64,000 nucleotides of DNA from contig NZ_CP154630.1 in NCBI RefSeq assembly GCF_039555535.1, positions 4,601,001 through 4,665,000 on the forward strand, given 5' to 3'. The DNA comes from Stenotrophomonas maltophilia (GTDB lineage Bacteria; Pseudomonadota; Gammaproteobacteria; Xanthomonadales; Xanthomonadaceae). The notes below the pieces were generated by a model, which worked only from the letters and a program-made list of their open reading frames with translations, ran no database searches and was not told the origin of the DNA. Position numbers and translations under genes: made by a program. This document shows positions 30,040 to 33,472 of this stretch, one piece after another; within the stretch, counting starts at the first letter, position 1, and every line of letters begins with the position of its first letter.

Positions 30040-30100
30040 GAAGAAAATAATTGAACAAAATAGTTGCGCACGACTAAATCGTGGTTTATCGTGCGCACCT
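30040..30100 (+). promoter_or_regulatory. AT-rich promoter-like region with perfect inverted repeat
   Basis: An island of A/T-rich sequence (AAGAAAATAATTG...) in a 67% GC background contains TGCGCACGA (30065-30073) and its exact complement TCGTGCGCA (30089-30097). A nested ACGA-ctaaa-TCGT lies at 30070-30082. It lies just upstream of the leader-like element at 30128-30308 and probably holds its promoter and an operator. The alternating TGCGCA/TCGTG pattern is reminiscent of MarR/OhrR sites, but that is only a resemblance. Confidence 0.5.
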
Positions 30101-30127: not shown

Positions 30128-30229
30128 TTGAACGCGCATTCCGTCGCCATCGCCAAACTGCTGCCATGCCTGCGCATGGACGTGCTGGCGCGCGCGTTCT
30201 GCAAGGAAGTCCAGCTGACAACGGCCTGA
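30128..30229 (+). other. Possible 33-codon leader ORF (TTG start)
   Basis: TTG 30128 to TGA 30229 encodes 33 residues rich in Leu, Val, Ala and Cys (AIAKLLPCLRMDVLARAFC). A weak GGAAA precedes it. The order of short ORF, strong hairpin and terminator is that of an attenuator. No biosynthetic operon follows, and there is no run of one amino acid. It may instead be the body of a small RNA; coding is uncertain. Confidence 0.35.
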
Positions 30230-30240
30230 TACCCGCCCTG

Positions 30241-30308
30241 CGGAGATCGGCCACCCCGATCTCCGAGGCCTGACGACGCCCTCGGAACGCAAGTCCCGGG
30301 GGCGTTTT
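30241..30308 (+). terminator. Hairpin plus strong intrinsic terminator
   Basis: CGGAGATCGG/CCGATCTCCG (30241-30265) is a perfect 10-bp stem. The second stem runs 30276-30305 (ACGCCCTCGG pairing with CCCGGGGGCGT, one T-G pair) and ends in TTTT (30305-30308). This pair closes the transcript that starts in the AT-rich region and is convincing as a terminator. Confidence 0.75.
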
Positions 30309-30431
30309 CATTTGCGTCGGCGCAAGGACCCGCGATGCCAGAACTGCACCCCACGCGGCAACCCGCCGCTCACTGACCCAGGTTTTTCCGCCCCACCGGA
30401 GGATTTTCTCCGCGTGCACGGCAACGCCTGG

Positions 30432-30475
30432 ACATTATCTGCATCGCACCCAAACATTATCGCTCGCGATAATGT
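30432..30475 (+). promoter_or_regulatory. Operator-like palindrome upstream of the tRNA-like RNAs
   Basis: ACATTATC at 30432-30439 is repeated at 30454 as part of the perfect palindrome ACATTATCG-ctcg-CGATAATGT (30454-30475). Both are A/T-rich in a GC-rich setting, and GATAAT (30468-30473) could double as a -10 box. No regulator gene lies next to it. It is the best candidate control site for the downstream RNA/slipin/rtcB unit. Confidence 0.55.
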
Positions 30476-30583
30476 CGGTGGCCTGCATCTTCGACTACCA
30501 ACGGTCCCGTTTCAACCACGGGCTGGTGCGCGCGGCATTGCCGTGGCGTATGCCGGAGGTCGCGGACATGCCATCGCCTGGAT

Positions 30584-30643
30584 CGCCTGCTGGAGGCAGG
30601 CGCCGGTTCGCCGGCACGCGGTTCGATTCCGCGCGGTTCACCA
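30584..30643 (+). ncRNA. tRNA-Ser(GGA)-like RNA, 3' two-thirds canonical, 5' third not
   Basis: Anticodon arm GCCTG/CAGGC (30585-30589, 30597-30601) with seven-base loop CTGGAGG has U33 and anticodon GGA. A long variable arm GCCGG-TTCG-CCGGC (30602-30615), as in class II serine tRNAs, follows. The T arm CGCGG-TTCGATT-CCGCG (30617-30633) follows that. The 3' end CGGTTC-A-CCA (30634-30643) encodes CCA. I cannot find a proper D arm or a 5' strand for the acceptor stem in the preceding 100 bases. So this is either a decayed tRNA gene or a tRNA mimic. The second tRNA-like RNA starts immediately after. Confidence 0.55.
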
Positions 30644-30644
30644 C

Positions 30645-30715
30645 TGGATAGCTCAGTCGGGTAGAGCAACGGACCCTGATTCCGTCTGTCGTGGGTTCGA
30701 CTCCCACTCCAACCA
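30645..30715 (+). ncRNA. tRNA-Gln(CUG)-like RNA with a short or bulged acceptor stem
   Basis: D arm GCTC...GAGC (30651-30667) with loop AGTCGGGTA. Anticodon arm ACGGA/TCCGT (30669-30673, 30681-30685) with loop CCCTGAT, giving anticodon CUG but C instead of the nearly invariant U at position 33. Five-base variable loop. T arm GTGGG-TTCGACT-CCCAC (30691-30707). The acceptor has only four contiguous pairs (TGGA 30645-30648 with TCCA 30708-30711), then A-CCA (30712-30715). A seven-pair stem GGT+TGGA/TCCAACC would form if the seven bases 30638-30644 were removed or bulged. An ordinary tRNA gene finder may call this tRNA-Gln or a pseudogene. Confidence 0.6.
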
Positions 30716-30750
30716 CATGACCTTCCACGTCATGACGTAAAGCAACACCC

Positions 30751-30917
30751 GGGGCGCACGCCCCAGCGGCCATCGTCGCCGGTCCTGCGAACGCCTTCGG
30801 GCGTTACAGGAAGGGCAACGGACCGCACGCCGGGCCTCGGCCCGCCGTCAATGCCAGCCACGTTCCGCCCCGGTGCTGCCTGCCGGGAACGACGACGGCA
30901 GCACTGCCGGTGCACCG
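30751..30917 (+). ncRNA. Strongly structured leader RNA upstream of the slipin gene
   Basis: Successive perfect hairpins: GGGGC-GCAC-GCCCC (30751-30764); a compound stem CGGTC/GACCG (30780-30784, 30821-30825) enclosing AACGCC-TTCG-GGCGTT (30790-30805); CGGGC-CTCG-GCCCG (30831-30844); GTGCTGCC/GGCAGCAC (30873-30880, 30897-30904); and CGGTGCACCG (30908-30917). Stable UUCG and CUCG tetraloops recur. It lies between the tRNA-like RNAs and the slipin start, with no protein frame that looks real. It is either a 5' leader or a separate structured RNA. Confidence 0.55.
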
Positions 30918-31070
30918 AAGGCTCCGCGCGTGGACCGTCCGCCGATGGCCGCCCTCTTCCGCTGCCTGCACGTGGTGTGCACGCGGCCTCGCCACGACCT
31001 GATCGACCCGGGTCCTGGCGATTCATCCGCAACGGGTCGAACCACCAGAGCCATACAAGGAGAGACTCCC

Positions 31071-32195
31071 ATGTTCTGGACCATCAAGGTCGTGATCGGC
31101 GACGGCGAGCGCGGCCTGGTGTATCGCAACCGTCGTTTCCAGCAGATCCTGCTGCCGGGTGTGCACCGCCTGTCGCTGTTCGGCGGCCGCCCACAGGTGG
31201 ACATCCACAACGCATCGAAGGGCGCGGCCTACTCCGGCAGCGACCAGGACAGCCTGATCGAAGCGCTGGGCGCGACGCTGGACACGCACTTCGTGCTGGC
31301 CAACGTCGGTGCCGGCGAGGTCGGCCTGCTGCTGCGCAACGGCCGCATCGACGAGGTGCTGCCGCCGGGCAGCCGCCGCCTGTACTGGCGCGGTTCTGTC
31401 GACACTCAGGTGCGCGTGATGGCACTCGGTGACGAGCCGCGCGTCCCGGCGGACGTGCAGCAGCGGCTGGGCCAGCTGGGCGTGCTGCCGCGTGTGGCGG
31501 TGATCAGCACCGTGCCGAGCGAGTCGGTGGGCCTGCTGTTCATCGATGGCACGCTGCGGCAGACGCTGGACGCCGGCCTGCACGCGTTCTGGAACTTCAA
31601 CGGCAACGTGTCGGTGGAGCGTGTGGAGCTGCGTGCGCGTTCGCTGGACGTATCCGGCCAGGAGCTGCTCAGCCGCGACAAGGTGACCCTGCGGGTGAAC
31701 CTGGCCGCGACCGTGCAGGTGGTCGACCCGGTGCGGGCACACCGCTCGCTCAGCAATGCTGATGAGTTCATCTATCGGCAGCTGCAGTTCGGCCTGCGCC
31801 AGGCGATTGCCGTGCGCAGCCTGGACGAGCTGCTGGGTGACAAGGCGGCACTGGACGGTGAGATCGCCGCCCATGTGCAGGCCGCGATCGAGGGCCACGG
31901 TGTACGTCTGCTTGGCGTGGGCATCAAGGACGTGATCCTGCCGGGCGAGATGAAGGAGATCCTCAACGGCGTGGTGCTGGCCGAGAAGCAGGCCCAGGCC
32001 AGCGTGATCCGCCGCCGCGAGGAGGCCAATGCCACGCGTTCGCAGCTCAACACCGCAAAGCTGATCGAGGACAACCCGGTGCTGATGCGCTTGAAGGAGC
32101 TGGAGGCGCTGGAGAAGGTCACCGAGAAGATCGACAAGCTCACCGTGTTCGGCGGCCTGGATGGCGTGCTGAAGCAGCTGGTGACGATCAGGTAG
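31071..32195 (+). CDS. Slipin-type SPFH/band 7 protein
   Basis: 374 residues from ATG 31071, with AAGGAGAG ribosome-binding site. The SPFH core is at about residues 140-300 (DVSGQELLSRDKVTLRVNLAATVQV, RSLSNADEFIYRQLQFGLRQAI, VGIKDVILPGEMKEILNGVVLAEKQAQASVIRRREE). That last stretch is the slipin fingerprint. A helical C-terminus follows (LKELEALEKVTEKIDKL). No N-terminal membrane hairpin is visible, so it may be soluble or peripheral. The N-terminal half has three copies of a GLxxRxGRxxxxLxPGxHRL-like unit at 15-38, 85-108 and 154-177. It is upstream of rtcB by 56 bases on the same strand, and likely co-transcribed. Confidence 0.88.
   Translation: MFWTIKVVIGDGERGLVYRNRRFQQILLPGVHRLSLFGGRPQVDIHNASKGAAYSGSDQDSLIEALGATLDTHFVLANVGAGEVGLLLRNGRIDEVLPPGSRRLYWRGSVDTQVRVMALGDEPRVPADVQQRLGQLGVLPRVAVISTVPSESVGLLFIDGTLRQTLDAGLHAFWNFNGNVSVERVELRARSLDVSGQELLSRDKVTLRVNLAATVQVVDPVRAHRSLSNADEFIYRQLQFGLRQAIAVRSLDELLGDKAALDGEIAAHVQAAIEGHGVRLLGVGIKDVILPGEMKEILNGVVLAEKQAQASVIRRREEANATRSQLNTAKLIEDNPVLMRLKELEALEKVTEKIDKLTVFGGLDGVLKQLVTIR

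Positions 32196-32251: not shown

Positions 32252-33472
<1,221 letters not shown>

Follow-up and report, generated by a model that had tools for sequence, protein, structure and literature searches.

What are the two abutting tRNA-like bodies that precede the genes for slipin and RtcB in Stenotrophomonas maltophilia, and to which of the two proteins do they belong? We analysed a stretch of 64,000 nt (the window), in which an earlier note had placed two tandem tRNA-like RNAs upstream of the gene pair. Both bodies could be confirmed on the + strand, A at 30579-30643 (alignment to relatives, consensus fold and single-sequence fold) and B at 30645-30715 (ARAGORN, Rfam, alignment to relatives and consensus fold). 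The genes 3' of the tandem, on the same strand, had also been named correctly: slipin (SPFH/Band_7) lies at 31071-32195 and the RtcB RNA ligase at 32252-33472, with Pfam matches to Band_7 (1.3e-32) and RtcB (9.2e-126), respectively. Judged by comparison with relatives, a promoter, an attenuator-like leader, an RNA of ≈620 nt with two tRNA-like domains, slipin and RtcB form an arrangement like that of a transcription unit.

The two tRNA-like bodies

Body A had been read as a class II tRNA-Ser(GGA) without a 5' acceptor strand, and alignment to relatives led to another assignment of its arms. What had been taken for a GGA anticodon forms the loop of a hairpin at the D-arm position (30585-30601); the stretch read as a UUCG-capped variable arm corresponds to the anticodon arm, which ends in a UUCG tetraloop (30602-30615) and is followed by the T arm (30617-30633). 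The 5' acceptor strand is present: with A folded alone, TGGATC (30579-30584) pairs with GGTTCA (30635-30640). The CCA reported to follow is encoded in the window (30641-30643), but just 6 of the 14 Stenotrophomonas sequences in the alignment have it. The proposed excision of 30638-30644, which would give a seven-pair acceptor, is not conserved, as the GGT needed for it is absent there in the 26 rows of alignment A1. A also lacks the 7-nt anticodon loop of a functional tRNA. Among the 62 of 78 rows used for anticodon counts (61 loci and the window, with 16 near-identical Stenotrophomonas loci left out), its loop has 4 nt in 39 (20 of them GNRA) and 7 nt in only 6.

Body B comprises a 4-bp acceptor (30645-30648/30708-30711), a D arm (30651-30667), an anticodon arm with the loop CCCTGAT (30669-30685) and a T arm (30691-30707). 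ARAGORN called it tRNA-Gln(CTG) at 30642-30716, the sole tRNA gene called in the window, and Rfam matched it as tRNA with 47.8 bits at 30645-30711, the outer acceptor positions not being included; mascRNA and YrlA gave weak Rfam matches in the window, under their cut-offs. The four contiguous acceptor pairs and the C33 noted before are both there. Four pairs are also the consensus in the 26 A1 rows, one or two of which could gain one more, so that the 7-bp acceptor of a functional tRNA is missing; the genome's own 44 tRNAs have 7 acceptor pairs in 42 cases and 6 pairs in 2. The minimum-energy fold of B alone has no cloverleaf.

The B loop has 7 nt in 54 of the 62 rows, and all position counts refer to these 54. 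U33 is found in 36 of them, the window having C33, and position 37 is A in 51. The 54 loops carry 28 anticodon triplets, unlike the conserved anticodon of a functional tRNA; these would read 15 amino acids and, at three loci, stop codons. In an entropy table of 60 rows, with the limits of the B acceptor and D stem off by one column, positions 34-36 reach 1.95, 1.85 and 1.68 bits, and the D stem, T stem and 4-bp acceptor are near invariant (mean 0.00-0.16 bits). D-loop GG and T-loop TTCRA are conserved in most rows. As the unconstrained tail has an entropy of 1.65 bits, about equal to that of the anticodon triplets, the triplets may simply have drifted neutrally. Exact mimicry of particular tRNA loops found no support among distinct B loops, 5 of which match loops of real tRNAs of the genome vs. 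4.1 expected in column-shuffled loops; counted by locus there were 10 matches vs. 4.8, a value reached in 59 of 5000 shuffles.

The tandem is conserved. ARAGORN showed two abutting tRNA-like bodies with changing anticodons at many of 80 Xanthomonadales rtcB loci, the best 80 of 227 relatives. A covariance model, R1, was trained on the 26 A1 loci (26 of 27 pairs, L095 being left out), all from other genera and with zero Stenotrophomonas sequences. It matches the pair at 77 of the 80 loci, including the 26 training rows, and gives the window 101.4 bits. It missed L086 and L105, where the contig starts ≈360 and 231 nt upstream of slipin, respectively, and L106, from which slipin is absent. In a further set of 24 loci of the order, R1 matched 23, one weakly. 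Ordinary adjacent tRNA genes also score ≈100 bits under R1, and the case is therefore carried by the conserved place and flanks of the pair. As a genome-wide probe R1 was unspecific, with matches in 369 of 369 class-sample genomes, and a second model from a non-tRNA domain was used instead.

Recurrence of the same tandem with compensatory changes at 77 of 80 loci speaks against simple decay. The earlier view that these are not translation tRNAs is very probably right: the genome has separate tRNA-Gln(CTG) and tRNA-Ser(GGA) genes, and the anticodons vary while the body stays. With an A that lacks an anticodon and a B whose anticodon differs widely between species, the two look like conserved mimics and not like decayed tRNA genes.

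The structured RNA and its attenuator-like leader

A and B form the centre of a structured RNA of ≈620 nt (30332-30952, + strand). Its 5' domain, in the Stenotrophomonas form, spans 30332-30447 according to a consensus fold of 14 Stenotrophomonas sequences, and the helix 30394-30401/30408-30416 within it has 10 double-change cells. Then come a hairpin with 10-nt arms (30454-30475, a perfect inverted repeat) and a closed multibranch domain II (30476-30576; consensus folds, with a model, R2, of its core) that holds the hairpins 30502-30525 and 30526-30551 (GGTGCGC...GCGTATGCC). A and B are followed by a hairpin CATGAC/GTCATG (30716-30734; from the consensus fold, and absent in some Dyella sequences), a short hairpin GGGGC-GCAC-GCCCC (30751-30764), which has a GNRA-like loop in relatives, and a 3' domain (30766-30952) closed by a 10-bp long-range stem, 30766-30775/30943-30952. 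This order of 5' domain, hairpin, multibranch domain, A, B, hairpin, short hairpin and 3' domain is the same in the window and 13 other Stenotrophomonas sequences (alignment A5, with 13 of 16 loci of the S. maltophilia complex). Some relatives have a stem and then T runs at the end of the RNA. The palindrome at 30454-30475 was at first taken for an operator, but is accounted for by its position as a hairpin of the folded RNA.

A check of covariation by covariance search of relatives had been proposed, and covariation across species was found. In alignment A4, with 24 of the 77 pair loci hand-picked for variety, RNAalifold predicted 144 pairs, of which 82 have at least one compensatory change. 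By an independent count, 95.3% of the cells are paired vs. 84.3% after shuffling, 82 pairs vs. 43.8 ± 3.2 show changes on both sides, and 386 cells vs. 115 are changed on both sides. The covariation score is 0.363 vs. 0.157 for shuffled alignments and 0.063-0.078 for slid partners, and the column-shuffle control gave z = -33 (20 shuffles). As the structure was derived from the same alignment there is a bias in its favour, but the gap to the controls is still wide. The hairpin 30454-30475 is the counterpart of A4 helix 4, with compensatory changes in 7 of 11 pairs, and the short hairpin 30751-30764 is A4 helix 17 (4 of 5 pairs). The long-range 3' stem corresponds in position to an A4 stem of 11 bp, 6 pairs of which have compensatory changes; the letters are wholly different, GCGGCCATCG/CGATGGCCGC in Stenotrophomonas vs. 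GGAAACGCCCC/GGGGCGTTTCC in other genera.

A minimum-energy fold of 631 nt of the window includes the long-range 3' stem, the hairpin 30454-30475, the anticodon and T arms of A and the T arm of B. The acceptor, D and anticodon arms of B and the acceptor of A are not formed in it, and these parts therefore rest on comparison. With Rfam 15 only tRNA was above cut-off in the window region, leaving the non-tRNA parts without a family, and the same was seen for five relatives (L131, L090, L241, L251, and L245).

The RNA is preceded by a leader (+ strand). A pattern search located a sigma-70-like promoter (TTGCGC, 17 nt, TATCGT) at 30064-30092, outside the range of the generic promoter scan (30200-31100), which thus does not list it. 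The pattern TTGnnn-TAnnnT, devised after these sequences had been viewed, lies at most 130 nt 5' of the leader ORF at 71 of 75 loci and occurs in 18 of 1480 random 140-nt windows. The ORF itself (30128-30229, 33 codons) has in the window a TTG start without a clear ribosome site. At 59 of 75 loci it starts with ATG, vs. a mean of 10.6 and a maximum of 21 after shuffling, and this includes 58 of 58 loci outside the S. maltophilia complex. It ends just 5' of segment 1 of the hairpins described below in 75 of 75 cases, with a gap of 8-23 nt in 74 and of 2 nt in one. No third-codon-position excess was found, so translation of the ORF is putative; the peptide sequence is not conserved.

A terminator pattern search gave the attenuator-like hairpins at 30242-30308, composed of segment 1 (30242-30250), segment 2 (30256-30268), segment 3 (30277-30286), segment 4 (30296-30304) and a U run (30305-30308). 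Among 78 sequences, those of 77 loci and of the window, 75 have a terminator of one pattern, the exceptions being L122, L087, and L125. The other sequence examined, 1,185,716 nt made up of the + strand downstream and all of the - strand at the loci, has 0 matches to this pattern. The pairings 1:2, 2:3 and 3:4 are possible in 75 of 75, giving mutually exclusive hairpins and a terminator, and in place of hairpin 1:2 the 3' part of segment 2 may pair with segment 3. Segment 1 reads GGAGGTCGG at five loci, and at four of these the matching segment 2 is CCGACCTCC. The system for comparison is the trp-type ribosome-mediated transcription attenuator, which resembles this leader in its promoter, short ORF, exclusive hairpins 1:2, 2:3 and 3:4 and U run. 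The leader here differs in having no visible run of regulatory codons, a stop 5' of segment 1 and an unconserved peptide. With the stop at that place, any antiterminating ribosome state that we might propose is a guess.

Slipin and RtcB as partners of the RNA

The R2 model covers the core of domain II and was built from 29 training rows (A6; 28 hand-picked loci and the window). It matches 76 of the 80 rtcB loci, the set from which its 28 training loci come, and misses L086, L105, L106, and L125. In 10 control rtcB stretches without a slipin in view, three of them orthologues, R2 had 0 matches; some of the control genomes do carry a slipin elsewhere. At E-values up to 1e-5, R2 was found in 26 of 200 genomes of the order, once in each, and slipin is present in every one of the 26. 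The distance from R2 to the slipin gene downstream, with both on one strand, is 360-732 nt in 25 of these genomes; in the remaining one, G853, it is ≈1.4 kb and the match to slipin is partial. Where slipin was not matched (151 genomes), R2 was absent throughout. R2 accompanies every slipin matched at E < 1e-130 (20 genomes), and the 23 of 49 slipin-match genomes that lack R2 at the cut-off all have more distant slipins. The 200-genome samples behind the R2 and slipin counts are apparently one set, as the listed handles agree. Slipin and rtcB stand together in 79 of the 80 loci, and L106, the sole member of this set without slipin, is also without the RNA. Since R2 was confined to genomes with slipin and found in 0 of 151 without it, slipin is the steadier partner. 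The proposal of an RNA dedicated to RtcB finds no support, the RNA being absent at L106 and in 10 of 10 rtcB stretches without a slipin in view.

Slipin relatives are present in 21 of 369 class-sample genomes, and at the 19 class-sample slipin loci outside the genus a tRNA-like match lies within ≈700 nt upstream in 16 and at 1.3 kb in one, with none in two. In the phylum sample, 23 of 398 genomes have slipin; 16 of 17 examined have a tRNA-like match and the 17th has no upstream sequence. R1 and R2 both match in 7 of 7 testable loci outside the class, and at E-values up to 0.01, 23 of 39 distant slipin loci have an R2 match 5' of the gene. At 36 distant slipin loci, rtcB was seen in the short stretch in 17 and in a longer stretch in 2 more (19 in all); 15 of the 36 show no rtcB even in the longer stretch, some being limited by their contigs, and 2 were not extended. 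The choice of the 18 longer regions favoured loci without a visible rtcB nearby (17 of 18), and 3 of 18 is therefore not a fair rtcB rate. No slipin relatives were found in viral contigs and phages; on plasmids there are 9 records, mostly very large replicons.

The neighbourhood of the distant slipins differs from place to place. Ordinary-looking tRNA genes lie near some of them (L298, L296, L293, and L239). L298:1-4317 (G303) combines rtcB and slipin with 13 ordinary-looking tRNA genes of diverse anticodons, as if carrying a spare tRNA set, and L296:3830-15087 (G531) is a repair island with rtcR, rtcB, rtcA, several tRNAs, slipin, an RlaP nucleotidyltransferase and a second RtcB-type ligase. 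In another genus, L192:2879-8153 (G050) has one tRNA-like pair directly 5' of rtcB, a second 5' of slipin and one further tRNA-like unit. The slipin neighbours at L289 are rtcR, rtcB, and rtcA; RtcR adjoins rtcB at L289 and L296 and adjoins slipin in Citrobacter, where the locus is annotated with rtcR, slipin and a nucleotidyltransferase. The slipin loci of Citrobacter (L254:3800-3830) and E. coli (L255:3800-3830) have a T-arm-like stretch only, the rest of the tRNA-like pair not being found, and both have a sigma-54 promoter-like sequence as judged by eye. No sigma-54 promoter was seen by eye near the RNA in the window. None of the six neighbouring proteins scanned has a TROVE (Ro/Rsr) domain, and PADLOC gave no match for slipin or RtcB.

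An N-terminal membrane segment is typical of the SPFH/slipin family. The slipin of the window has the SPFH domain and no transmembrane segment, the highest 19-residue hydropathy mean being 1.34. Its N-terminal part is beta-rich according to a predicted model and fold search. Foldseek aligned the model with major vault protein over ≈470 alignment columns (best E 7.9e-10), two vault chains aligning from residue 4 or 7 on; in VIA-align no chain was matched by the N-terminal part alone. The vault particle is built of major vault protein, which has N-terminal repeats and an SPFH-like shoulder. Repeated motifs (GLVYRNRRF..., GLLLRNGRI...) are also visible in the N-terminal part of slipin (31071-31520 of the window), and these may resemble the vault repeats.

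Known relatives and possible function

Burroughs and Aravind, in the abstract of a 2016 paper in Nucleic Acids Res., reportedly described a new tRNA-like molecule associated with SPFH/Band-7 modules in repair systems based on RtcB. The locus studied here fits that description, with a tRNA-like RNA beside a Band-7 gene and RtcB, and very probably the molecule described in 2016 is this RNA seen in part. Possibly new here, with an uncertain overlap, are the ≈620-nt fold, the tandem whose first unit has no anticodon, the hypervariability of the anticodon in the second, the attenuator and the steadier association with slipin than with RtcB. We found no description of the large RNA, its attenuator or the tandem in the open-access literature, relative to which the size of the RNA, the hypervariable anticodon and the attenuator appear to be new.

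Kinship to Y RNAs, which had been brought into play before, found no support. YrlA (RF02553), from rsr-yrl-rtcBA operons, is likewise a tRNA-mimicking RNA within an RNA-repair operon, but the RNA studied here has another fold and another neighbouring protein. The window scores 24.4 bits with the YrlA model, far from the gathering score of 69 bits and no better than ordinary tRNA-tRNA junctions (24.6-29.9 bits). Two relatives, L090 (37.3 bits) and L241 (33.4 bits), are also far under the cut-off. An argument from the T-arm-to-D-arm order was dropped after the control with ordinary tandem tRNAs. At second-type RtcB loci of Stenotrophomonas (L186:2990-3484 and L187:4090-4343) there are YrlA-like copies of 66 bits (cut-off 69), so the genus has repair loci of two types, which differ in their type of tRNA-mimicking RNA. 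tmRNA is also a big structured RNA with a tRNA-like part; here there are two tRNA-like units, placed mid-RNA, and Rfam scans of the window region, L131, L090, L241, L251, and L245 gave no tmRNA match.

Several reports bear on when such loci are active and what their RNAs do. In Acinetobacter treated with the translation inhibitor tigecycline, rtcB shares the top induction at 252-fold (PMC7652931). In Anabaena without the repressor TrcR, a slipin gene is up 42-fold and rtcB 77-fold, and translation inhibitors lift the repression exerted by TrcR (PMC10272220). In Pseudomonas aeruginosa an SPFH gene is part of the rtc locus (PMC13086221); the accessible part of another source (PMC11090510) holds nothing on slipin. 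Together with a tRNA-like partner, TROVE proteins are said to provide a platform on which RNA is repaired (PMC7824862). In Salmonella, YrlA fragments went undetected when tRNAs were cut, and it was proposed that the tRNA-like domain of YrlA might inhibit the nuclease by competition (PMC7790460); the RNA studied here could act in a similar way.

On comparative grounds the evidence fixes a conserved large RNA that is tied to slipin and has an attenuator-like leader. For its function we infer, with a probability of about 0.42, an inducible slipin-RNA particle that uses tRNA mimicry in RNA repair. Disturbed translation, e.g., through cleaved tRNAs or stalled ribosomes, would cause the leader to let transcription past the terminator. 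The RNA would then accumulate and join the SPFH protein slipin in a particle of RNA and protein, which via tRNA mimicry might bring the ligase RtcB together with broken tRNAs and with nucleases that target tRNAs. B could serve as bait or sensor with a fast-changing anticodon loop, and A, mostly without such a loop, as an uncleavable tRNA mimic or anchor. This reading is helped by the reports of rtcB and a slipin gene responding to translation stress (PMC7652931, PMC10272220) and of an SPFH gene in an rtc locus (PMC13086221). Counting against it are the leader ORF without a codon-position signature, B anticodon triplets about as variable as the unconstrained tail, the A and B arms not formed in the minimum-energy folds, the more distant slipins without an R2 match and the many distant neighbourhoods without RtcB. 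A wider claim, which we consider doubtful, would be that an as yet undescribed class of ≈600-nt RNAs in at least two classes of Proteobacteria forms a stress-induced particle with a soluble vault-like SPFH protein. The two tRNA mimics would be its bait and its anchor, the bait anticodon being shaped by the attacks of tRNA-cutting toxins and the attenuator acting as a translation-sensing switch that turns the particle on upon failure of translation.

Other readings explain part of the evidence. The large RNA might act purely in cis, as a giant 5' leader without a role in trans, its tRNA-like domains being cut or processed (by RNase P, RNase Z or anticodon nucleases as candidates) and thereby switching slipin and rtcB. 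In 25 of 26 genomes it lies just 5' of slipin in the same orientation, which would suit this, as would the attenuator-like leader that the unit already bears and the stem with T runs that ends the RNA in some relatives. We still find it unlikely, as the RNA begins 3' of the attenuator and its constrained pairs would seem to far exceed what a simple switch needs. A mere decoy, which soaks up anticodon nucleases or other tRNA-binding toxins with slipin and RtcB as independent neighbours, would account for a fixed B body with a hypervariable anticodon and for the conservation of D-loop GG and T-loop TTCRA in the majority of rows. Such a decoy would not need the tight linkage to slipin, nor an RNA that is mostly not tRNA-like, and distinct exact matches to real anticodon loops are not in excess; we regard it as quite unlikely.

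A dedicated RNA partner, decoy or sensor of RtcB, as the earlier note had it, seems improbable to us. That rtcB follows in the window and accompanies slipin in 79 of 80 loci is what one would expect of it, but the RNA is absent from rtcB stretches without slipin and present by slipins without rtcB in the stretch examined. Ordinary or decaying tRNA genes can be given hardly any credence, even with both ARAGORN and Rfam classing B as tRNA and some distant slipin genes adjoining ordinary-looking tRNA genes. The tandem stands at 77 of 80 loci with compensatory changes, U33 is absent in 18 of 54 loops and three anticodons read stop codons. The acceptor has a consensus of four pairs vs. 7 (42 of 44) or 6 (2 of 44) in the genome's own tRNAs, and CCA is not conserved.

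If the slipin-RNA particle is real, the role of the SPFH protein slipin in RNA-repair loci would be that of the protein half of an RNA-protein particle. A fixed tRNA body with a changing anticodon may then record which anticodons are attacked by tRNA-cutting toxins. With no Rfam family and 82 compensating pairs, the large RNA is a good target for structure determination, and the locus would offer a concrete and testable link from failing translation to RNA repair.
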